Shown: piece after piece, positions 8,677 to 53,111 of the stretch
How the letters are laid out: every line of letters begins with the position of its first letter
Position numbering within the stretch: position 1 is the first letter of the stretch
Source of the DNA: Mesorhizobium sp. NZP2298
GTDB lineage: Bacteria; Pseudomonadota; Alphaproteobacteria; Rhizobiales; Rhizobiaceae
Assembly: GCF_013170825.1 (NCBI RefSeq)
Contig: NZ_CP033365.1
Coordinates: 3,174,001-3,238,000 of the forward strand
Length of the DNA: 64,000 nt
Direction of reading: 5' to 3'
Program-made: the position numbers and the translations under genes
Notes under the pieces: model-generated
Seen by the model: only the letters and a program-made list of their open reading frames with translations
Databases searched by the model: none
What the model was told of the DNA's origin: nothing

Positions 8677-11250
8677 TCATTTCGCCTGGGCGAGCTGCTG
8701 TTCCACCAGGCCGAGTTCCTTCTCGTAGAAGCCCTCGAAACCGGGGGCATAATGCTGCTCGCGGAAGATGTCGCGCGCGCTGATGAAGGCGTCACGGGCG
8801 GCGAGCAGGCTGGCCCTGTCATGCGTCCTTGTGCCGATGGCGAGCAGGATCTCGCCGCGCACCGAATGGGTCTTGCCCCAGATGATCGGCGACTTGCCGC
8901 GTGTCAGCTCGGTCAACGCGAGATCCATCTGTTCCAGCGCCTTGCGGTAGCTTGGCACGCTGGCCTCGGCGTCGCCGATCAAGCGGTAGGCCCTCCCCAT
9001 ATTGTGGGTGATGGTTGCCCAGGTGAAGGGGTCAACCTCCCGGGTGATCACCTCATGCGCCTTGTCGAAGGCGGCGATCGCCTGCGCGAAACAGTCGGGG
9101 CAGTTGCCGCGCTGGCCGAGCGACAGCAGCACCGAGCCGAGATTGTTTTGCGTGTTGGCCCAGTCCATGGGCTGGGTTTCGCGAGCACGGAAGGCGAGCA
9201 CGTCCTCGAAGGCGGCCCGCGATGCTTCCAGCTTCTCGGTGCCGCCGCCGACGTCGCCGAGCCTCTGCAAGGCGACGGCGAGGTTGCCCAGTGCCATGGC
9301 CCATTGCATCGGCACCTTGTCGCGGGTCCAGACGGTGAGCGCGGCATGATAGGCCTCGATCGCCGAAGTGTAATTCTTTTGGGGGTCGGCGGCATCGCCA
9401 AGGGCGGTGAACGCGTTGCCGATGTTGTTTTGCAGCCCCGCCCATTTTTCGGGATAGGTCTTTCTCGTGTAGACCTTGGTTGCCTGGCGGTAGGCCTCCA
9501 TGGCCTTGGCATAATAGGCCATGCCGCCGGCGCGCTGGCCCATCAGGTGGTAGGCGTTGCCGAGGTTGATCAGCACGGTGGCCCACAATTGCGGCTTGCG
9601 CTTGCGGGTGAAGAAATCAAGGGCGTCCTCATAGACCTTGATCGCCTGCTCGAGACGGGCCGTGCCGTTCTCGCGCTCGGCCAGCGCGGTGAGGGTGATG
9701 CCCTCATTGATGGCGACGCCGGCCGGACCGCCGGTGAAGACCGTGACGCCCGGCAGGAGCTTCGCCGCTTCGTAGACATCGACGGCTTGCGACAGCGCGG
9801 CGTTCTCGCCCTTGATCATGCCCTGGTCGGTCAGCGCGTCGGCTTCGAAGATCTTGTAGATGAAGGCGGTCTTCGGGTCCCAGCGCTCGGCTTGCCGGAA
9901 GGCGTCCTCGTAGCGCGCCGCGGCGGTGCGGTAGTCGAAGTTGAGGATCGCGGTGCGGGCATGGTCGGCGAAGGTGTCGGCCAGTTCCAGCCGGCGCTGC
10001 CTGATATCGGCCTCGGCCTCGTCAAGCGCCTTGCCGATCTCCTCGGCGCGGGCGCTGGCCTTGGCCCGGAAGGTCAAGGCGAGGCGGATCGCGCCTTCCG
10101 ACTGCGCGCGATCAGCAAGGCCGGAAAGCCGAATCAATTCCGGGTCCTGCCTGGTTTCGGTGTCGTGCCGGTCGAGGATCTCACGCAACTTCTGTGCGCC
10201 CGCCGCAAGCTGCGCCCGCAAATCGGCGGGACCGGCCGACGTATCGACCTGCAAGGCGCCGAGCATGCCGTACAGCTGGTCGAGAGGCACCTCGTTCTGC
10301 GCCGCCACCGTCTCGACCATGGAGCGCTGTTCAGCCGGTGTCGCGGCGATGGTCAGCAATAGCTTGCGCCGCGCGGAGCGGATCGAGGCCTCGTCGCTGC
10401 CGGTCTCTTCCGGTGCCTGGCCGAAATAGAGCAGGCGGCGCAGGCTGGCGTTGGTCCATGGCAGTTGCCGGCCGCCGGTCTTCACATAGACCTCCTCGGC
10501 GACCATGGTCATGACGTCGCCGAAGGCGAAGCCGCCGGCGGCCAGATGTTTCAAGAGCGCCGCGGCATAGGGGCTGTTGCCGCCGGGCTCGCCGTCCAGC
10601 GCCGCGTGGCCGGGCTCGGCGGCAAAGCCGATGACCTCGCCGAGGCTCTGCGGCGCGCCGGATGCATCCGCCAGCGGCGCCGCGCCGCGCGCCAGGTCTA
10701 GTCCGGCGGCCGCGACCGTCGCCGGGCCGGACGGGGCGGTCAGCCTGGCACCCGGTGGAAATGGATTCGAGCGGCAGGCGTCGAGCAGCACGATTGCCAC
10801 CGGCACGCTGGCCTTCAGCTCAGCCAGCAGAGCGGAGACAGGCACCAGCCGGTTCGCCGGATCGGACAGCGAAGTGGCGTCCGCTTCGACCGGCACCAGG
10901 TAATTCTCGCCGCCGGCCTCGATGCCGTGGCCGGAATAGTAGAGCAGCGCGACGTCGGCGCCGGCGGCGTCCTCGACGAAATGCTTGAGGCCGCGCGCCA
11001 GGCGAGGCGCGTCGCCGTCGGGAATGGAGCTGACCTCGAAGCCGAGGCTGGTCAAAAGCTGGGCGACAGCGCGCGCGTCATTGGCCGGGTTGGGAAGCGC
11101 GGGCAGGGAGCGGTATTGGGATTCGCCGATGACCAGTGCCACGCCGCGCAGCGGCTTGGCGTCGTCGGCCCGTGCCGGCCAGGCCAGCACAACGGCCTGC
11201 AATGCCAGCAGCAATGCAGCGCAAAGAGCAAAGCGACACCAACCCGCCAT
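8677..11250 (-). CDS. exported caspase-family (C14) peptidase with TPR region
   Basis: This protein of about 857 residues has a signal peptide (hydrophobic LCAALLLALQAVVLAW ending ARA-DD). A caspase-like domain follows with the catalytic dyad H108 (YYSGHG) and C159 (LLDACRSNPF). A helical stretch leads into a long C-terminal TPR array from about residue 430, with units such as LINLGNAYHLMGQ, NNIGNAFTALG and NNLGSVLLSLGQ. Such proteins are thought to cleave partners recruited by the repeats, outside the cytoplasm in this case. ATG 11250 follows GGGG at six bases. A TTG two codons upstream is possible. It is divergent from the HerA-like ATPase gene across 385 bases. Substrate unknown. Confidence 0.85.
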   Translation of the reverse strand: MAGWCRFALCAALLLALQAVVLAWPARADDAKPLRGVALVIGESQYRSLPALPNPANDARAVAQLLTSLGFEVSSIPDGDAPRLARGLKHFVEDAAGADVALLYYSGHGIEAGGENYLVPVEADATSLSDPANRLVPVSALLAELKASVPVAIVLLDACRSNPFPPGARLTAPSGPATVAAAGLDLARGAAPLADASGAPQSLGEVIGFAAEPGHAALDGEPGGNSPYAAALLKHLAAGGFAFGDVMTMVAEEVYVKTGGRQLPWTNASLRRLLYFGQAPEETGSDEASIRSARRKLLLTIAATPAEQRSMVETVAAQNEVPLDQLYGMLGALQVDTSAGPADLRAQLAAGAQKLREILDRHDTETRQDPELIRLSGLADRAQSEGAIRLALTFRAKASARAEEIGKALDEAEADIRQRRLELADTFADHARTAILNFDYRTAAARYEDAFRQAERWDPKTAFIYKIFEADALTDQGMIKGENAALSQAVDVYEAAKLLPGVTVFTGGPAGVAINEGITLTALAERENGTARLEQAIKVYEDALDFFTRKRKPQLWATVLINLGNAYHLMGQRAGGMAYYAKAMEAYRQATKVYTRKTYPEKWAGLQNNIGNAFTALGDAADPQKNYTSAIEAYHAALTVWTRDKVPMQWAMALGNLAVALQRLGDVGGGTEKLEASRAAFEDVLAFRARETQPMDWANTQNNLGSVLLSLGQRGNCPDCFAQAIAAFDKAHEVITREVDPFTWATITHNMGRAYRLIGDAEASVPSYRKALEQMDLALTELTRGKSPIIWGKTHSVRGEILLAIGTRTHDRASLLAARDAFISARDIFREQHYAPGFEGFYEKELGLVEQQLAQAK

Positions 11251-11635
11251 GCACAACCCCGATCAGCCCAGCCCATGCTAACCGGCATAAAGTGGCGGCT
11301 CAATGGCGAATGGTGGTCCGCCGACTGGCGAAAAGACTGGCGACCGGCGTATACACGAAGGGACTTGAAGACGCCGGCCGCCATTTGGGGCGTTGGGTGC
11401 ATCCCGTTGGGGCGCGATGCAGGGTCAGGCTAGGCGGATGACCGGCATCTTCAATCGGAACGCCTGCCCATGGTGAATGAGGGGTTACTATCCACAGGGG
11501 CCGGCCAAGCGATGGCGCACTCTTCGCCCGGCCTTCGCCGTCTCTCGCAACTGTGTGCAACGCCGGGCAGTCGGCCATCAGTGCTCGACGGGCAGCGCCT
11601 GGGTTGGTAAGCCCCATGCCGCGCAGGAGACCTTT
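11251..11635. other. divergent intergenic region between caspase-TPR and ATPase genes
   Basis: These 385 bases separate two gene starts pointing away from each other and must hold both promoters. I see no convincing reading frame with an RBS, no strong palindrome and no repeat. One stretch (CTATCCACAGG near 11500) resembles a DnaA box with a mismatch but stands alone. Confidence 0.5.
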
Positions 11636-13150
11636 TTGAGTCGAGACATGACCGTTGCGATCGAGATGGGACACACCACGGCGGGCGCCCCAGCCAACCT
11701 CGATCTCGAGGAACTGCTGGCGACCCGCCTTCTGGTGCAGGGCAATTCCGGCTCCGGCAAGTCGCATCTCTTGCGCCGCCTCCTGGAGCAGAGCGCGCCC
11801 TGGGTGCAGCAGACAATCATCGATCCCGAAGGCGACTTCGTCTCGCTCGGCGAGCGCTACGGCCATCTGGTGATCGATGCCGAGGAGCATACCGAGCGCG
11901 GGCTGCAGGCGGCCGGCGAGCGGGCGCGCATCCACCGCGTCTCGACCGTGCTCAACCTCGAAGGGCTCGACGCGGAGAACCAGATGCGGCGCGCCGCCGC
12001 CTTTCTCGGCGGGTTGTTCGAGGTCGCCCGTGACCATTGGTACCCGATGCTGGTGGTGGTGGACGAGGCGCAACTGTTCGCGCCGGCGGTGGCCGGCGAG
12101 GTTTCCGACGAGGCGCGCAAGCTTTCGCTCGGCGCCATGACCAATCTGATGTGCCGCGGCCGCAAGCGCGGGCTGGCCGGCATCATCGCCACGCAGCGTC
12201 TGGCCAAGCTCGCCAAGAATGTCGCCGCCGAGGCGTCGAATTTCCTCATGGGCCGGACTTTCCTCGACATCGACATGGCGCGCGCCGCCGATCTGCTCGG
12301 CATGGAGCGGCGCCAGGCGGAAGCCTTTCGCGATCTGGAGCGCGGGCAGTTCATGGCGCTGGGGCCCGCGCTGTCGCGCCGTCCGCTCGGCCTGCGTATC
12401 GGGCCGACCGACACCAGCCCGCGCAACGGCACGCCGCGGCTGATGGCGATGCCGGAGGCAGCGCTTGAGGACGCCCGCGCGATCATCCTGGCGGCGCCGC
12501 CGCCCGAGACGGTGCGCGCGCCGCGCCGGGTGGCGTCGCCGGATCTGCTCGACCAGCTGATGGCGGCGAAGTCGGCGGCGCTCGAAATCCGCCCCGAACC
12601 GCCGGAGCCGCAGATCAGCGCCGAGGATCTGGCCGATCGGCGCGAACGGGTCGACCGCGTGCTGCGCGCCATTCTCGCGCAACCCGACGCGGGTTTCCGC
12701 GTCATCGGGGTGCTCTACCAGGAATTCGTGGTACGCTGCCGTATCGAGGGCCTCGCCTCGGTGGTGCCGGATCTGCCGGAGTTCCGCCGCATGCTGACGC
12801 GCGCGCGCGCCGGCCTCGGCTCCGAGACGACGCAGGATGACGCGTGGCGGGACGTTTCCGTCCGCGCCTCGCTGCTGCCCGACGACATGCAGGGTGTGTT
12901 CATGATGATCGCGCGTGCCGCCAAGGAGGGCTGGCCGTGCCCGAGCGACGCCGCGATCGCGCGCGCCTATGGCTCGCACTCGCTGCGCCGCGCCCGGCGC
13001 CTCCTGACCTATATCGAGGAGCAAGGCCTCATCGTCTGCCAGATCGACGGCACGGGAAAGCGCACCGTGACACTGGTCGAACTCGCCTGGGCCACGGCGC
13101 CGGGCGATCCCAATGCCGAGGAGGCGGAGCAGGGGAGCCTGGCGCTATAG
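11636..13150 (+). CDS. HerA/DUF87-like P-loop ATPase
   Basis: The ATPase has Walker A GNSGSGKS (residues 32-39 counted from ATG 11648) and Walker B MLVVVDE (134-140). An arginine-rich RGRKRGLAGIIATQR sensor region follows, as in HerA/FtsK-type proteins that motor along DNA. The C-terminal 200 residues carry winged-helix-like segments (AIARAYGSHSLRRARRLLTYI). TTG 11636 is favoured because AGGAGA lies five bases ahead. The ATG four codons later has no RBS. HerA partners such as NurA are not adjacent. Similar stand-alone ATPases are common in rhizobia and their role is unclear. It may share a regulatory region with the caspase gene. Confidence 0.85.
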   Translation: MSRDMTVAIEMGHTTAGAPANLDLEELLATRLLVQGNSGSGKSHLLRRLLEQSAPWVQQTIIDPEGDFVSLGERYGHLVIDAEEHTERGLQAAGERARIHRVSTVLNLEGLDAENQMRRAAAFLGGLFEVARDHWYPMLVVVDEAQLFAPAVAGEVSDEARKLSLGAMTNLMCRGRKRGLAGIIATQRLAKLAKNVAAEASNFLMGRTFLDIDMARAADLLGMERRQAEAFRDLERGQFMALGPALSRRPLGLRIGPTDTSPRNGTPRLMAMPEAALEDARAIILAAPPPETVRAPRRVASPDLLDQLMAAKSAALEIRPEPPEPQISAEDLADRRERVDRVLRAILAQPDAGFRVIGVLYQEFVVRCRIEGLASVVPDLPEFRRMLTRARAGLGSETTQDDAWRDVSVRASLLPDDMQGVFMMIARAAKEGWPCPSDAAIARAYGSHSLRRARRLLTYIEEQGLIVCQIDGTGKRTVTLVELAWATAPGDPNAEEAEQGSLAL

Positions 13151-13228
13151 GGGAAGCCATGACGCGTCAACTCCTGAGGCAGCGTGGTCGCTCATCCGGT
13201 TTTGGCGAGGGTGGTCGACAAATACTGG

Positions 13229-13864
13229 TCAGCCTGCGGCCGCAATGCCGGCGTGATGGCTGCCCAATTGCCACAGGGGCAGGGGAAAGCGCCCGTGCTG
13301 CACTTCGATGAGGCGGAAGCCGGCGGCGCCGATCAGGCGCAACGGATCGCGGTTGAGGTGGCAGCCGCCGGCGATCGATCCCCACAGCCGGTTCAGGCGC
13401 TCCTGCCACCGGCGGCAACGCGGCCCCTCGGCCTGGCCGTGCTCGATGAAGATCAGTCGCCCCGTCGGCTTCAGGATGCGCCGGATTTCGCCGAGCGCCG
13501 CCTCTGGGTCCGGAATGGTGCAGAAAGCATAGGTGACGACGACCGTGTCGGCGAGGCCATCGGCCAGTGGCAGGCTTTCGCCGCTCGCCCGCAGGCACTC
13601 GACCCGGAATGGCAAGCCACGGCTCCTGGGTCCGGCAAGGCCGAGCATCGTGCCGTCGGGATCGACGCCGATCAGCCATTCCACTTTGGCGGGGTCGTAA
13701 TAGGGAAGGTTGAGGCCGGACCCGAAGCCAACCTCGACGACGACGCCTTGCGCCCGCGGGATGACGCGCTTGCGCATATGCGAAAAGGCGCCGGCCGAAC
13801 AGCCGGCGTGGACGAAGTAAGGGGCGACGCAGCGCGCGTACCAGGAAAGGCAGGTCTGGCACAT
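13229..13864 (-). CDS. class I SAM-dependent methyltransferase
   Basis: The 211-residue methyltransferase has the SAM-binding motif I VVEVGFGSGLNLPYY, an acidic motif II (IGVDPD) and the post-motif VVTYAFCTIPDPEAAL, followed by FIEHG. The N-terminus MCQTCLSWYARCVAPYFVHA with two cysteines resembles the METTL7/UbiE-like thiol or membrane-associated group. GGAGG lies seven bases before the ATG. It is convergent with the ATPase gene. The substrate is unknown; a small thiol or lipid is plausible for this group. Confidence 0.88.
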   Translation of the reverse strand: MCQTCLSWYARCVAPYFVHAGCSAGAFSHMRKRVIPRAQGVVVEVGFGSGLNLPYYDPAKVEWLIGVDPDGTMLGLAGPRSRGLPFRVECLRASGESLPLADGLADTVVVTYAFCTIPDPEAALGEIRRILKPTGRLIFIEHGQAEGPRCRRWQERLNRLWGSIAGGCHLNRDPLRLIGAAGFRLIEVQHGRFPLPLWQLGSHHAGIAAAG

Positions 13865-14054
13865 GGTTCAGCCTCCATGCCCGGCGGCAGGGGCGCCGGC
13901 TAGCGGTTCTGACTTGCGATGGCTTGATGTATTGACCGGTGACATTTCTCGCTCCAAGGGAGTTGATCGGGCCGGATCGGCTCGAAACCGGGGATAGAAG
14001 GCCGGCGTCCCCTCAACGTCCTCTGAAAACCCTTGCCCGGCCGCGTGCGGATCG

Positions 14055-15599
14055 ATGGAGCTGATACAACTCAGACTTCTGGGTTTTCCGGAGTTCCGGC
14101 TGAACGGGCGGCCGATAGAGCTTGCCTTGCGCAAGGCGGCGGCGCTGGTCATCTACCTCGCCGAGGCCGGCGGGCCGGTGGCGCGCGACGTCGCCGCCAC
14201 GCTGCTATGGCCCGAGGCCGACGCGGAAGCCGCCCGCGCCCGCCTGCGGCGCACGCTCTACAAGATCCGCGTCGCGTTCGGCGAGGAAGTCATATCCGCC
14301 AGCGCGGCATCGCTGAGCCTGCGCCCGGCGCTGTCGGTCGAGGCCGACTCCCGGGCTTTCGACCACGCCTGCGACGCCGGGCTTCTCGACGATGCCGCCG
14401 ACCTCTACACCGGCGACTATCTCGCCGGTTTCTCGCTGCCGGATTGTCCCGAATTCGAGGAATGGGTTTTCTTTCGCCGCGAGGCCTTGCGCAGCCGGCT
14501 GGTGCAGGCGCTGGAGCGGCTGGTCGAAGCCAAGATCGCCGGGGGCGAACCGCGCGGCGCTGTAGTCCACGCGACGCGGCTTGCCGCCCTCGACCCCTTG
14601 AGCGAAAGCGCGCACCGCCACCTGATCCGCGCCCATCTGGCGGCGGGCGACAGGGCGGCGGCCGAGCGCCAGGGCGAAACCTGCATGCGGCTGCTGCGCG
14701 ACGAACTCGGCGTGGCGCCGGACCCGGCCACGCTCGCCCTGCTGCGCGCGCCGACGCCCGACCCCGAACTGGAGATGCCCAGGACCTGCTATGTCGAGGT
14801 GGACGGCATCCATATCGCCTACCAGACCGTCGGCAACGGCCCGGCCGATATCGTGCTGGTGCCGGGCTTCATCTCGCATGTCGAGCGCATCTGGGAGGAC
14901 AGGAGCTGCCGCGCCTGGCTCAGCGCGGTGTCGCGGCTCGGCCGCCTGATCCTGTTCGACCGGCGCGGCATGGGCCTGTCCGACCGCGTCGGCGCCCGCC
15001 CGACCGTCGAGGCGACGGCGCGCGACATTCTGGCGGTGATGAACGCGGCCGGCAGCCGCAAAGCCTTGCTGGTCGGCGCCTCGGAGGGCGGCCCGGGCTG
15101 CATCCGCTTCGCCGTCGACCACCCCGACCGGCTGACCGGCCTGGTTCTGTGGGGCTCGCTCGCCAAGGGCAGCCACGCGCCCGACTACCCCTTCGCGCTG
15201 ACATCGGCGCAATACGATCTGTGGCAGGGGCGCCTGCTCGCGGGCTGGGGCGGCCCGGCGGAAATCGAGACCTTCGCGCCGAGTGTTGCCCAGGATCGCC
15301 AGGCGCGCGCCTGGTGGGCCGGCCTGCTCAGGGCCGCCTCCAGCCCCGGCGCGGTGGCGGGCCTGCTGCAGGCGCTGCGCGATGCCGATGTGCGGCCGCT
15401 GCTGTCAAAAGTCTCGGCCAGGACGCTGGTGCTGCACCGCACCGGCGACCACGCCGTGCGCATCGAGGCCGGGCGATACCTGGCGGCGCGGATCGCGGGA
15501 GCCCGGTTTGTCGAGGTGGAGGGGGAGGATCACTGGTTCTGGGTGGGGGAGCAGCGGCAACTGCTGGAGACGATCGCGGCGATGGCGGGCGCACGGTGA
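14055..15599 (+). CDS. BTAD activator domain fused to an alpha/beta hydrolase
   Basis: The 514-residue fusion protein has residues 1-90 resembling a winged-helix OmpR-like domain (LRLLGFPEFRLNGRPIEL, then ALLWPEADAEAARARLRRTL). Residues 95-235 form a BTAD helical domain of the SARP activator type (YTGDYLAGFSLPDCPEFEEW, then LDPLSESAHRHLIRAHLAAG). The C-terminal half is an alpha/beta hydrolase with RRGMGLSD, nucleophile motif GASEGG and late His in GEDHWFW. Acidic, histidine and serine positions are intact, so activity is likely. The design suggests a regulator that binds or turns over a small effector. A decayed copy of its hydrolase half lies at 19915-20456. Confidence 0.88.
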   Translation: MELIQLRLLGFPEFRLNGRPIELALRKAAALVIYLAEAGGPVARDVAATLLWPEADAEAARARLRRTLYKIRVAFGEEVISASAASLSLRPALSVEADSRAFDHACDAGLLDDAADLYTGDYLAGFSLPDCPEFEEWVFFRREALRSRLVQALERLVEAKIAGGEPRGAVVHATRLAALDPLSESAHRHLIRAHLAAGDRAAAERQGETCMRLLRDELGVAPDPATLALLRAPTPDPELEMPRTCYVEVDGIHIAYQTVGNGPADIVLVPGFISHVERIWEDRSCRAWLSAVSRLGRLILFDRRGMGLSDRVGARPTVEATARDILAVMNAAGSRKALLVGASEGGPGCIRFAVDHPDRLTGLVLWGSLAKGSHAPDYPFALTSAQYDLWQGRLLAGWGGPAEIETFAPSVAQDRQARAWWAGLLRAASSPGAVAGLLQALRDADVRPLLSKVSARTLVLHRTGDHAVRIEAGRYLAARIAGARFVEVEGEDHWFWVGEQRQLLETIAAMAGAR

Positions 15600-36226: not shown

Positions 36227-37258
36227 TCAGCGCCGCTTGCCGCGGCCGGCGGGGGACTTGGCTCCGCGCGGCCCGCTCTGCACTGGTGTGTTGTGCTGGT
36301 TTTCTTCGGACAGTTTGCGCCAGCGGGCCAGGCGCTCGGGATCGAGCGTGCCGGCCTTGATGGCAGCCTGCACCGCGCAGCCCGGTTCGTGCACATGGGT
36401 GCAGTCGCGGAACTTGCACAGTGGGGCAAGCTCGGTGATCTCGGCAAACAGCGTGTCGATGCCGTAGCCGACGTCGCTGACCTGCAGCGTGCGCATGCCC
36501 GGCGTGTCGATCACCCAGCCGCCGCCGGCAATGGCATGCAGCGACCGCGCCGTGGTGGTGTGACGTCCCTTGGCGTCGTGTTCGCGAATGGCTCCGGTTT
36601 GCTGCGGCGATTGCTGCGCCGATCCAGCCAACGTGTTGACCAGCGTCGATTTGCCGACGCCGGAGGAACCGATCAGCGCCACCGTCTGCCCCGCGCCGCA
36701 CCAGGCGGCGAGGGCGGTCGCGGCATCCGCTATGCGCGGGTTCAGCGTCACCACGGCCAATCCGCGCTGCAGCGCGGCGGCTTGGCGTTGATACGCCTCG
36801 GCGTCTTCAGCCGTGTCGGCCTTGGTCAGCAGGATGACGGGTGTCGTTCCGGCCTCGTTGGCCAGCGCCAGATAGCGCTCGAGCCGCGCGATGTTGAAGT
36901 CGGCATTGCAGGAGGTGACGATGAACAGCGTGTCGACATTGGCCGCGGCCAGCTGCGGCACCCGGCCGCCCTGGGCGCGGCGCTCCAGCACCGTCTTGCG
37001 GGTCAGGCGGCGCTTCACAAGCTGATCATGCGGCTCGACCAGCACCCAGTCGCCAACGGCATAGTCGCCTGTGGTGGCCTGCGGCGGCAATGTCAGGTCG
37101 GTTTGCCCTGCCTGGGACAGGCCGCTCAGCCGGTCACGATGGACCATGGCGATGCGGGTCGGGATCAGGCTTGCCTCGCCCGATTCGAGCTGATCGGCGA
37201 AGAAATCCGACCAGCCAAGGTTGACAAGCGAGGGTGACGAGGCAGGGGAGGAGGCCAT
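36227..37258 (-). CDS. rsgA: ribosome small subunit-dependent GTPase RsgA
   Basis: The 343-residue circularly permuted GTPase matures the 30S subunit. It has an N-terminal OB-like part (GDYAVGDWVLVEPHDQLVKRR), G4 TKAD at 145-148, G1 GSSGVGKS (197-204), G3 DTPGM (251-255), and the zinc knuckle C281, C286, H288 and C294 (CKFRDCTHVHEPGC). ATG 37258 is the sensible start by family length, although the reading frame is open upstream all the way into the dinB frame because of a frameshift there. The promoter must lie in the 340 bases shared with the divergent small ORF at 37601. Confidence 0.93.
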   Translation of the reverse strand: MASSPASSPSLVNLGWSDFFADQLESGEASLIPTRIAMVHRDRLSGLSQAGQTDLTLPPQATTGDYAVGDWVLVEPHDQLVKRRLTRKTVLERRAQGGRVPQLAAANVDTLFIVTSCNADFNIARLERYLALANEAGTTPVILLTKADTAEDAEAYQRQAAALQRGLAVVTLNPRIADAATALAAWCGAGQTVALIGSSGVGKSTLVNTLAGSAQQSPQQTGAIREHDAKGRHTTTARSLHAIAGGGWVIDTPGMRTLQVSDVGYGIDTLFAEITELAPLCKFRDCTHVHEPGCAVQAAIKAGTLDPERLARWRKLSEENQHNTPVQSGPRGAKSPAGRGKRR

Positions 37259-37538
37259 CAAGGCTTCGACCAAGGGTACGGCGTCGCAGACATCGGACAG
37301 TATCTCTGGCAAGAAGAGGTGTGGCGCGGACAACGCCTTTCGGGGGCGATCCGCCCACGCTGTTGTATGGGCGGCATGGCCGGATTTGGCAAGCATCTCA
37401 CGGCGAGAGGGGCTGGCTCGGGTGCACTCTGACCATTCGCGGCCACAAATCATACGTCCGGCGACGTCGATTGTCGCGATGATCACCGGGCGAGCCCTCA
37501 AGACGAGAAGCCACTCGCCAGGCCGGAGTCCGCAATTC

Positions 37539-37567
37539 TTGACAAGCCGCGCTTGCCGGATGTTACT
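37539..37567 (+). promoter_or_regulatory. promoter-like boxes ahead of the small RiPP-like ORF
   Basis: TTGACA at 37539-37544 is a good -35 box. A weak -10 (GTTACT, 37562-37567) follows after 17 bases. They sit about 35 bases ahead of the GTG at 37601, which itself is preceded by GGGGGA. The -10 matches only half of the consensus. Confidence 0.4.
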
Positions 37568-37600
37568 GCCGCCAGCTGCTTGGGGCTGGGGGACTTTGCC

Positions 37601-37687
37601 GTGAAGAAGACATATCAGAAGCCGGTCTTGGTGAAGCGCGAGCTGCTGTCCGCCGTGACCGCCGCGCCTGCCACTTCCGGGCGTTGA
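37601..37687 (+). CDS. 28-aa orphan RiPP-like precursor peptide
   Basis: GTG 37601 has GGGGGA seven bases upstream. The peptide reads VKKT, then YQKPVLVKRELLSAVTAA, then PATSGR. Its leader follows the lasso-peptide recognition pattern Y..P.L...G.....T in spacing: Tyr, Pro at +3, Leu at +5 and Thr at +15, with Glu where Gly is usual. The tail after the Thr has no Asp or Glu to close a ring, so a lasso product is unlikely. I recall short rhizobial peptides of this kind being called putative RiPP precursors. No cyclase, protease or transporter gene is adjacent. A promoter lies at 37539-37567. It is convergent with dinB and divergent from rsgA. Confidence 0.55.
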   Translation: MKKTYQKPVLVKRELLSAVTAAPATSGR

Positions 37688-37727
37688 TCCGGAAGCCGTG
37701 GCGCGAGGGGGCTGACGCCTCCCGCGC

Positions 37728-38974
37728 TCACAGCTCCTTTTCCGCCAATTCCTGAATTCGTCGGGCACGGAGCGCGCTGCTTCCAGCGCCACCGTGCCGT
37801 AGCCGACCGCCTGTTTGCCGAAGCGCTCGCGGATCTTGTCGATGGCGCGGTCGGCGCCGAAGCGGGCCAGGCCTTTTTGGCTGCCGGGGCGGCGCTTTTC
37901 GTCGGCGAGGCCAAGCGGCAGGTCGAGTTGCAGCTCGGCGCTCTCCTCCAGATGCGAAACGGAGATCGCCAGCAGCGAGATCGTCTTTTCCCGGGGATGG
38001 TCGGCGAGTACGCCACGCACCAGGTCCTGCGCGATTTCGGCCAGCATGGTGGTCGCCGAGATCGGTTGGTCCAGCGTGATCGAGCGTGTGACGGCACTGA
38101 GGTCGGCAAAGCGCACGCGCACCGTCACCGTGCGGCCGGGCCGCGCCTTGGCGCGCAGGCGGCTGGCGACGCGGTCGGCCAGGTGCAGCAAGGTCGGCTC
38201 GATCACCCGCGCCACGGCGGGTTTCTGGCCAAGCGCCGATTGCGCACCGGCCGAGTGTGCCCGGCGCTTGGTTTCCAGTTTTCTCGGGTCGCGGTTCCAC
38301 GACAGGGCGGCGAGCTTTTCGCCGGCGGCGGGGCCGAGCAGCCTTGTCAGCGCGCCGCTATGCGTCCTGGCCAACTGGCCGATGGTCTCGACGCCGATCT
38401 CGGCCAGCCGCGCTTTGGTCGCCGGGCCGACGCCCCACATCAGGGAGACCGGCAAATCGTGCAGGAAGGCGAGTTCGGTGCCGGGTTCGACCACCACGAG
38501 CCCGTCGGGCTTGGCGACTTGCGAGGCGATCTTGGCCAGATGCTTGGTGCGCGCCACGCCTATCGAGATCGGCAGGCCAAGTTCCGTGCGCACGCGGCGG
38601 CGGATCGCCGTGGCGATCTCCGCCGGTTGCCCGAACAGATGCGTGCAACCGGCGACGTCGGCGAAGGCCTCGTCGATGGAAATGCGCTCGACCACCGGCG
38701 TGAAATCGTCGAGCACTTTTATCGCCGCGTCGCCCAGCCGCTGGTAGTGGCTGAAATTGCCGCCGACGAAGATCAGCTGCGGGCAAAGCTCGCGCGCCTT
38801 GCGCCCCGGCATGCCGCCGCGCACGCCGAAGGCGCGCGCTTCATAGGAGGCGGCGAGCACCACACCGCCGCCGACGGCGATCGGCTTGCCGCGCAGCGAT
38901 GGATCGAGCAGCTGCTCGACCGAGGCATAGAACGCGTCGAGATCGGCATGCAGGATGGTGGCGGTCGTTTCCAT
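37728..38974 (-). CDS. dinB: DNA polymerase IV (DinB) with a 3-prime frameshift
   Basis: This Y-family translesion polymerase of about 415 residues has catalytic D11 and D13 (HADLDAF) and D101-E102 (SIDEAF), the palm, thumb (GVGPATKARLAEIGVETIGQ) and little-finger domain. The last residues of the family (ELAEKEL) are found one frame away, ending at TGA 37728. A one-base deletion near 37755 (AGGAA where AGGGAA is expected) therefore removes the natural stop. In the original frame translation would run on through 37258 into rsgA. It may be a sequencing error or a recent mutation. Catalytic residues are untouched. ATG 38974 fits the family start. Confidence 0.85.
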
Positions 38975-39076
38975 CCGGCTGCATATCCGAGGTTGCTGAT
39001 GGATTTGAACAAATAGAGAACAAAAGGTGATAATTGTCAAGCCAGGCGTGGAGTGCATCCTCCAGGCGCCGTCTCC

Positions 39077-52820: not shown

Positions 52821-53015
52821 ACTGACCTCGAATGGCGCGCGATCGAGCCGCTGTTGCCTAACAAGCCGCGAGGAGTGCCGTGCGTAGACGGCCGCCGGGT
52901 GCTGAACGGCATCTTCTGGGTGCTGCGATCGGGTGCGCCCTGGCGCGATCTGCCAGAGCGATACGGCCCCTGTACCACTTGCTACAATCGCTTCGTCCGA
53001 TGGCGGAAGGCAGGT
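52821..53015 (+). mobile_element. IS5-family transposase N-terminal fragment
   Basis: The frame reads TDLEWRAIEPLLPNKPRGVP, then RVLNGIFWVLRSGAPWRDLP, then ERYGPCTTCYNRFVRWRKAG. This is the DUF4096-type N-terminus of IS5-group transposases. It lacks a start codon, the DDE core and visible inverted repeats. After VWG the frame passes without a stop into the RiPP-like peptide that follows. It is an insertion sequence relic. Confidence 0.85.
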
Positions 53016-53111
53016 GTGTGGGGCGACTACGAAAAGCCGAGGCTCGAAAGGCGCGAAAAGCTGTCCAGCGTGACGGCGGCCAGTGGCGTGTCAACGGTCG
53101 AGATAAATTGA
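53016..53111 (+). CDS. 31-aa orphan RiPP-like precursor joined to an IS5 relic
   Basis: From GTG 53016 the peptide reads MWGD, then YEKPRLERREKLSSVTAA, then SGVSTVEIN. The Y..P.L.........T spacing of lasso leaders is present and the same E-x-L-S-x-V-T-A-A run occurs as in the peptide at 37601. If cleaved two residues after the Thr, the remaining ASGVSTVEIN has a Glu at position 8, the spacing for an eight-residue ring, but only two residues would follow. GGAAGG lies six bases ahead. The original start was probably replaced by the IS fragment. No maturation genes are adjacent. Confidence 0.5.
   Translation: MWGDYEKPRLERREKLSSVTAASGVSTVEIN

Follow-up and report, generated by a model that had tools for sequence, protein, structure and literature searches.

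The 64,000-nucleotide stretch of the Mesorhizobium sp. NZP2298 genome analysed here (NZ_CP033365.1, positions 3,174,001 to 3,238,000; hereafter the window, whose own coordinates are used) contains, between dinB and rsgA, a small open reading frame (ORF) that is likely to encode the precursor of a linear ribosomally synthesized and post-translationally modified peptide (RiPP). Both neighbouring genes are on the minus strand (rsgA starts at 37258), and the ORF is convergent with dinB, from which it is separated by a hairpin (Table 1). Its translation, (V/M)KKTYQKPVLVKRELLSAVTAAPATSGR, consists of the leader KKTYQKPVLVKRELLSAVTA and the tail APATSGR, in which Ser occupies tail position 5. The leader carries the YxxPxL motif of lasso peptide leaders with Thr at position -2 (Y5, P8, L10 and T20), and E14 stands where the lasso motif has Gly. 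An earlier note, made from the sequence alone, had described here an orphan RiPP-like peptide with a ribosome-binding site, a promoter-like pair, this leader spacing with Glu at the Gly position, and a short tail without acidic residues. The ORF is confirmed as real by its sequence, family and conservation, and its site, its ribosome-binding site, its leader spacing and its seven-residue, acid-free tail are as described there.

Table 1. Features at and around the peptide gene and the second copy in the window
Feature	Position	Strand	Remarks
Precursor peptide gene	37601-37687	+	GTG start, 28 aa; basis: translation, family searches, conservation
GGGGGA, likely ribosome-binding site	37588-37593	+	7 nt ahead of GTG; GGGGGA over-represented 10-19 nt ahead of the start codons in the family
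TTGACA, -35-like element	37539-37544	+	62 nt ahead of start codon; family-wide enrichment
Strong hairpin, possible terminator	37690-37744	+	-33.1 kcal/mol, z -3.1; directly 3' of stop codon
Second family copy, probably dead	53028-53111	+	inside ORF 52854-53111; 5' end replaced by transposase-like fragment

Sequence searches indicate that hundreds of predicted miniature genes of one family are scattered across the genus Mesorhizobium. A first search with the window peptide yielded 16 matches in its own genome; of 101 genomes searched, 53 gave a match, eight of them with best E values of only 0.2-2.8 that may be chance hits (G017, G020, G035 and G044 of the genus and four outside it). A profile search with a 40-row alignment (A1; consensus MKKTYEKPVLVKRExLSAVTAxxxxS) then gave at least 893 matches at E<=0.01 in at least 101 of 146 Mesorhizobium genomes; these are lower bounds, as are the results of the order-wide kinase scan below, because not every first-look candidate was scored (e.g. 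56 of 79 found). The peptides are 26-36 aa long and combine the common leader MKKTYEKPVLVKRExLSAVTA with a variable tail of 5-15 aa. Their genes are dispersed, some in tandem (e.g. in G037, G001 and G053), and also occur at eight places on four Mesorhizobium plasmid records.

No internal stop was present in any family match listed. The homologues are kept as ORFs with fewer nonsynonymous than synonymous changes, one relative (L011) being broken: the ratios of the two (pN/pS-type) range from 0.14 to 0.55 over 15 pairs, with few changes each, among six sequences, the window copy and the five full-length relatives nearest to it (L002-L005 and L012). In the leaders of 11 paralogues from the own genome (11 of its 17 profile matches), pS is 0.70 and pN 0.27 (ratio 0.39) at a mean identity of 63%, and the tails are 15% identical. 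An orphan chance ORF is rejected by the family size and this conservation. Among seven loci tested, the peptide gene lies beside dinB in L001 (the window), L003, L004, L005 and L011; rsgA is also present within the 3 kb examined only in L001 and L004, and L002 and L012 show neither gene there. Two of the plasmid copies, L082 (pMspAR02b) and L083 (pMESCI01), are near genes for SOS response-associated peptidases, L083 also near Ku/ligase genes; the similarity to the window copy near dinB may be a coincidence.

The -35-like element recurs in most of the family. TTGACA was found at -40 to -75 in 70 of 109 upstream regions (47 of 74 once sequences sharing 6-mers had been clustered), compared with 1 of 425 control gene starts from the loci analysed, and it lies at -60/-61 in L002, L004 and L005; copies lacking it include later members of arrays. 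Given this enrichment, most copies look like separate transcription units. The -10 box leans at most mildly towards TATAAT, and the canonical box shows no clear excess: downstream of TTGACA, matches of at least four of six bases occur in 3 of the 70 (4.6 in shuffled sequences) and matches of three in 31 (18.3 shuffled). A general-stress promoter, sought with the motif GGAAC...GTT, was rejected, with 2 occurrences in 109. The 109 peptides of this and the leader counts, two of which are from more distant genomes, exclude copies that lack a start codon within four codons, have less than 160 nt upstream, or are longer than 45 aa.

The tails are highly divergent except for one residue. All 103 distinct tails have Ser within tail positions 3-6 (mean of 2,000 shuffles 56.5, maximum 73) and 73 have it at position 5 (10,000 shuffles: mean 16.6, maximum 31), in sets that depend on a leader pattern requiring [ATVS]A at -2/-1 and carry a mild bias, copies having been found by similarity to a Ser-containing query. 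An earlier, overlapping set gave Ser at position 5 in 49 of 64 tails (mean 11.7, maximum 24); these came from 65 rows and include two without a start codon and the disrupted copy of the window. Remnants in G112 and G113, one with a Ser-free tail, lie outside the tail sets. Two Cys residues are present in 26 of the 103 tails, with Ser between them in all 26, and SG in 39. The Asp or Glu at tail position 7-9 that a lasso ring needs is found in nine tails, the window tail not being among them. At position -2, the 109 peptides have Thr (83), Val (17), Ala (8) or Ser (1), and where the lasso motif has Gly they mostly carry Glu (53), Gln (22), Asp (19) or Gly (10). An NCBIfam scan of the window peptide gave no model over its cut-off and listed only lasso_cyano (14.7 bits; cut-off 33). 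None of 12 family peptides scanned (the window copy, L008, L019 and nine more) exceeded the cut-off of 19 bits for NF033521 (lasso_leader_L3); L185 came closest with 14.2 bits, and the window copy was not listed.

A candidate partner set of enzyme genes is located 2.97 Mb from the window ORF, in an exopolysaccharide region. It comprises B1, a RiPP recognition element (RRE; PF05402, 47.2 bits); B2, a leader peptidase (NF033537, 67.3 bits against a cut-off of 33); K, an HprK-fold kinase; and NT, an NTP_transf_5 protein. There is no room for a further gene between B1 and K besides B2, and the set is flanked by genes for Wzz and NTP_transferase proteins, with Bac_transf near a lasso cluster considered below. 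A PDB search with B2 returned nothing clear. Scanning genome contigs for the kinase identified 76 loci, 71 at 64-90% identity (67 with Mesorhizobium in the title, as in all four plasmid records) and five at 34-44%, the latter from Oricola indica and from Xanthobacteraceae, Notoacmeibacter, Hyphomicrobiales and Rhizobiales bins. B1 and B2 accompany the kinase in all 76 loci and NT in 75. In 19 of the 71 close loci (one of the 71, L123, has no upstream stretch), a family peptide is encoded no more than 800 nt upstream of B1, with leaders that look degenerate in L164 and L166. Of these 19 copies, which include those of L134, L144, L147, L157, L162 and L171, only that of L150 has T at -2; the others have V, L or A (VVA, VLA, VAA), and many of them carry SGPxG tails, a sub-type unlike most dispersed copies.

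The distribution of B2 from this set (B2-II) closely follows that of the peptides. All 97 of the 146 genomes with B2-II contain them, with at least 3-29 copies each (median 8; at least 888 in total), and 45 of the 49 genomes without B2-II have no family match among the candidates scored (Fisher 2e-33, ignoring relatedness). In the B2-II scan and in the checks of the four exceptional genomes, which have a peptide and no B2-II, every candidate, or every candidate but one, was scored in the rows shown. These exceptions are a truncated remnant in G113, a remnant and a divergent peptide in G112, a divergent peptide in G168, and an intact copy in G177, an assembly with 11% contamination; each of the four genomes has one strong PF13471 match. 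Five other genomes (G016, G020, G035, G046 and G060) combine a strong PF13471 match with a lack of B2-II and of any profile match among the candidates scored (G020 and G035 show weak single-sequence matches with E values of 2.6 and 0.225), and G040 has the B2-II type only and at least six peptides.

Related sets occur outside Mesorhizobium. In an order-wide sample of 397 genomes, at least 17 have the kinase, including 11 in seven other genera; few candidates were scored per genome, and the count is thus a lower bound. All 11 loci of other genera contain B1, B2 and NT. With the macrolactam cyclase (C) of the strain's own lasso cluster as a tblastn query, no match was found in the 76 loci (flanks up to 6 kb) or in these 11 (11-19 kb). 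Precursor genes lie beside the set in 11 of the 16 more distant loci. The five distant loci of the kinase scan have five upstream of B1 (L185), one plus an array of nine (L186), three (L188), one (L189) and none (L183). Small ORFs with the leader motif, chosen by a looser pattern and by eye, are near seven of the 11 loci of other genera (six in L220, three in L218, one each in L216, L222, L223, L224 and L225) and were not found in L217, L219, L221 and L226. By reading, Ser again lies at tail positions 3-6 of the distant precursors, leaving out L216, which has a longer tail. The nine tandem precursors of L186 (10502-11871) share a near-identical core, G(A/T)NFSGKK, while their leaders and C-termini vary, the opposite of Mesorhizobium, where it is the tails that are varied.

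Based on these data, the scattered peptides appear to be processed by one shared lasso-like enzyme set without a ring-closing step. We consider it likely that the window ORF encodes a linear RiPP precursor and that its family is matured in trans by the cyclase-less B1-B2-K-NT set. We infer cleavage, phosphorylation, NT action, export and function as follows. The RRE protein B1 would bind the YxxPxL leader, and the Cys-His peptidase B2 would cut after the ...TA (or VA) at its end. The kinase K may place at least one phosphate on the tail Ser, and NT might then attach a sugar or nucleotide in the way put forward for pseudomycoidin. Ring closure would not take place, and a single enzyme set would turn scattered genes into many different small peptides. 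Given the exopolysaccharide surroundings of the set, the peptides may act at the cell surface or in signalling. More speculatively, and with considerable doubt, the genes as separate units and the one enzyme set could form a natural combinatorial system in which phospho-Ser serves as a handle for sugar or polysaccharide, giving strain-specific peptide-decorated glycans or signals. The RiPP-like reading of the earlier note, of a lasso-type leader with a product unlike known lasso peptides, is supported by the conserved leader and variable tail, the missing cyclase, the few tails with a ring acid, and the RRE and lasso B2 peptidase that track the family across genomes. Its term 'orphan' applies only locally, since the enzymes that probably act on the peptide have their genes at another site of the genome and would handle many copies.

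Several observations weigh against this reading. B1 and K score below the cut-offs of NCBIfam models, and the co-occurrence counts of B2-II and peptides are not phylogenetically independent. No peptide was seen directly upstream of B1 in 52 of the 71 close loci, nor beside the set in five of the 16 more distant loci, and in the strain of the window none of the small ORFs directly upstream of B1 has the family leader. The ABC protein of the own lasso cluster, used as a query, matched none of the 76 loci and two of the 11 loci of other genera, other exporters not having been searched. Thr at -2 is replaced by V, A or S in 26 of the 109 copies. Counting against the ORF itself, the dinB-rsgA setting could be seen in just one of six relatives, and L011, beside dinB, has lost its first codons. 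Of the promoter-like pair noticed earlier, TTGACA recurs in most of the family, but the -10 half is weak and a consensus scan finds no plus-strand promoter at the ORF.

Among other explanations, the best surviving, which we nevertheless regard as unlikely, is that B1 and B2 cut the leader and free an unmodified tail, for example as a signal, while K and NT act on another target, for instance a polysaccharide precursor or a nearby HPr-like protein. HPr-like genes are indeed near the set in 63 and PtsI-like genes in 65 of the 71 close loci, and in work on the linear polyphosphorylated peptides (LPPs) of Bacillota no effect of the NT homologue could be demonstrated (PMC13381572). However, neither HPr nor PtsI gave a match (E<=1e-6) in the 16 more distant loci, which keep B1, B2 and K in all cases and NT in 15, and Ser is the one residue kept in every compared tail. 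It is less probable still that the peptides are true lasso precursors and obtain their ring in trans through the cyclase belonging to a complete A-B1-B2-C-K lasso cluster (G000:C1, ~265-271 kb) 27 kb from the set. The lasso-like family leader would fit such a route, but only nine of 103 tails have the necessary acid, the window tail being acid-free with seven residues; moreover, peptide genes sit at the cyclase-less set, they are missing among the candidates scored in the five genomes with a strong PF13471 match and no B2-II, and they are present in G040, which has the B2-II type only. A lasso peptide identity was accordingly rejected on tail composition, missing cyclase and co-occurrence. The least likely reading, in which the copies are a selfish or decaying repeat cassette and yield no functional product, has in its favour the high copy number, the dispersal, the plasmid copies, the disrupted window copy, the truncated remnants and the truncated L011, and against it the lack of stops inside the matches listed, the low pN/pS-type ratios of relatives and paralogue leaders, the tight B2-II co-occurrence, the fixed distance of TTGACA and the Ser kept in otherwise divergent tails.

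The lasso cluster itself (L063, G000:C1:256000-275900) is complete at 9138-15040 of that locus and includes a kinase as well as an ABC-like gene; about 27 kb separate it from the set that lacks a cyclase. Its predicted core begins GGGGSTAID, with the boundary set by eye.

Precursors of prochlorosins are dispersed and combine a conserved leader with a variable core. A single promiscuous enzyme, ProcM, is reported to serve them (PMC10783134), which resembles the arrangement proposed here; the enzyme class, leader family and lanthionine chemistry differ. The NCBIfam matches listed for the 12 peptides include no LanM/Nif11-type family, although LanM and Nif11 were not themselves searched for.

The closest analogy is with the LPPs. 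In the LPP report (PMC13381572), an RRE presents a YxxP leader, an HprK-like kinase attaches several phosphates to a core Ser and a peptidase frees the linear core; what the NTP transferase does is left unsettled there, and LPPs and paeninodins are called Bacillota-restricted. Shared with this system are the RRE, HprK-like kinase and NTP transferase without a cyclase, the polysaccharide locus, the YxxP leader with a variable C-terminus, and the proximity of a phosphorylated-type lasso cluster (PMC13381572). By the same account, LPPs have an SpI-like peptidase, an MsbA-like transporter, the leader YxxPxVLxHQxIxFETxxS, and one to three precursors of 35-200 aa per cluster (PMC13381572), whereas here the peptidase gene between B1 and K is a lasso B2 (no search for SpI was made in the rest of the genome), the lasso ABC query found few or no matches as given above, and many scattered copies of 26-36 aa with the A1 leader occur in Alphaproteobacteria. 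The most likely reading is a linear, probably phosphorylated RiPP system matured in trans that is analogous to the LPPs and, as peptidase, transporter, leader motif and precursor size differ, not one of them. Lasso peptides of the paeninodin/pseudomycoidin type, as described in PMC9266682, share B1, B2, an HprK-like kinase with a His-Lys-Asp-Asp motif and a nucleotidyltransferase, which in pseudomycoidin is credited with hexose addition to phospho-Ser; here, in contrast, no cyclase was found, few tails have a ring acid, and Ser lies inside a short tail instead of being fixed at the C-terminus.

Listings of the open-licence PMC literature showed no report of the Mesorhizobium family, its enzymes or rhizobial cyclase-less phospho-RiPPs, the LPP paper aside. 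A paralogue on plasmid pMspAR02b, MKKKYEKPVLTKRDRLGSVTAQVVVISGPVA (WP_258589706.1), is named 'putative RiPP precursor' by NCBI, a bare name with no partner enzyme stated in the regions viewed, and the best place on each of the four plasmid records is a 'hypothetical protein' or unannotated. Precedent for the family is thus at the level of a name, and its likeness to LPPs in operation would be one of analogy. A protein database search with a 44-aa ORF gave five matches, one of them 'hypothetical protein [Mesorhizobium erdmanii]'. RiPP precursors are usually sought beside their enzymes; as most of those found here are far away, only ~30 codons long and often unannotated, they can be overlooked both in genome mining and in gene calling. 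Should the proposed reading be right, linear kinase-type RiPPs would reach beyond Bacillota while retaining a lasso-type B2 peptidase, and a variable peptide repertoire with a possible role in exopolysaccharide or strain recognition would be present in many legume-nodule bacteria.

The neighbours of the distant sets offer one more indication of product chemistry. Of the 16 more distant loci, 12 have a weak match of the acyl-CoA-synthetase type near the set; the three tested with Pfam (L185, L186 and L218) are AMP-binding enzymes, and a GNAT protein is also encoded in L185 and L188. The neighbours concerned lie at 8027-10050 in L185, 8009-10270 in L189 and 8020-10326 in L186. Small ORFs in L186 and L189 resemble carrier proteins by eye only, with no Pfam match. 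These neighbours hint at acylation of the product, and lipid or acyl attachment may therefore be a further branch.

Within the window, the hairpin behind the peptide gene fails the T-run rule for a terminator call. An RNA element was rejected, the window having neither an Rfam match at the gathering score nor a tRNA. In the second copy, a transposase-like N-terminal stretch, so judged by eye from its residues, is fused to a family leader and tail, disrupting the copy. On the minus strand, 36227-39058 forms a single 943-aa ORF in which dinB continues in frame into rsgA, antisense to the peptide gene: compared with L002, L004 and L005, dinB is one base short near its 3' end (~37751) and has lost its usual stop, through either a true change or an assembly error.
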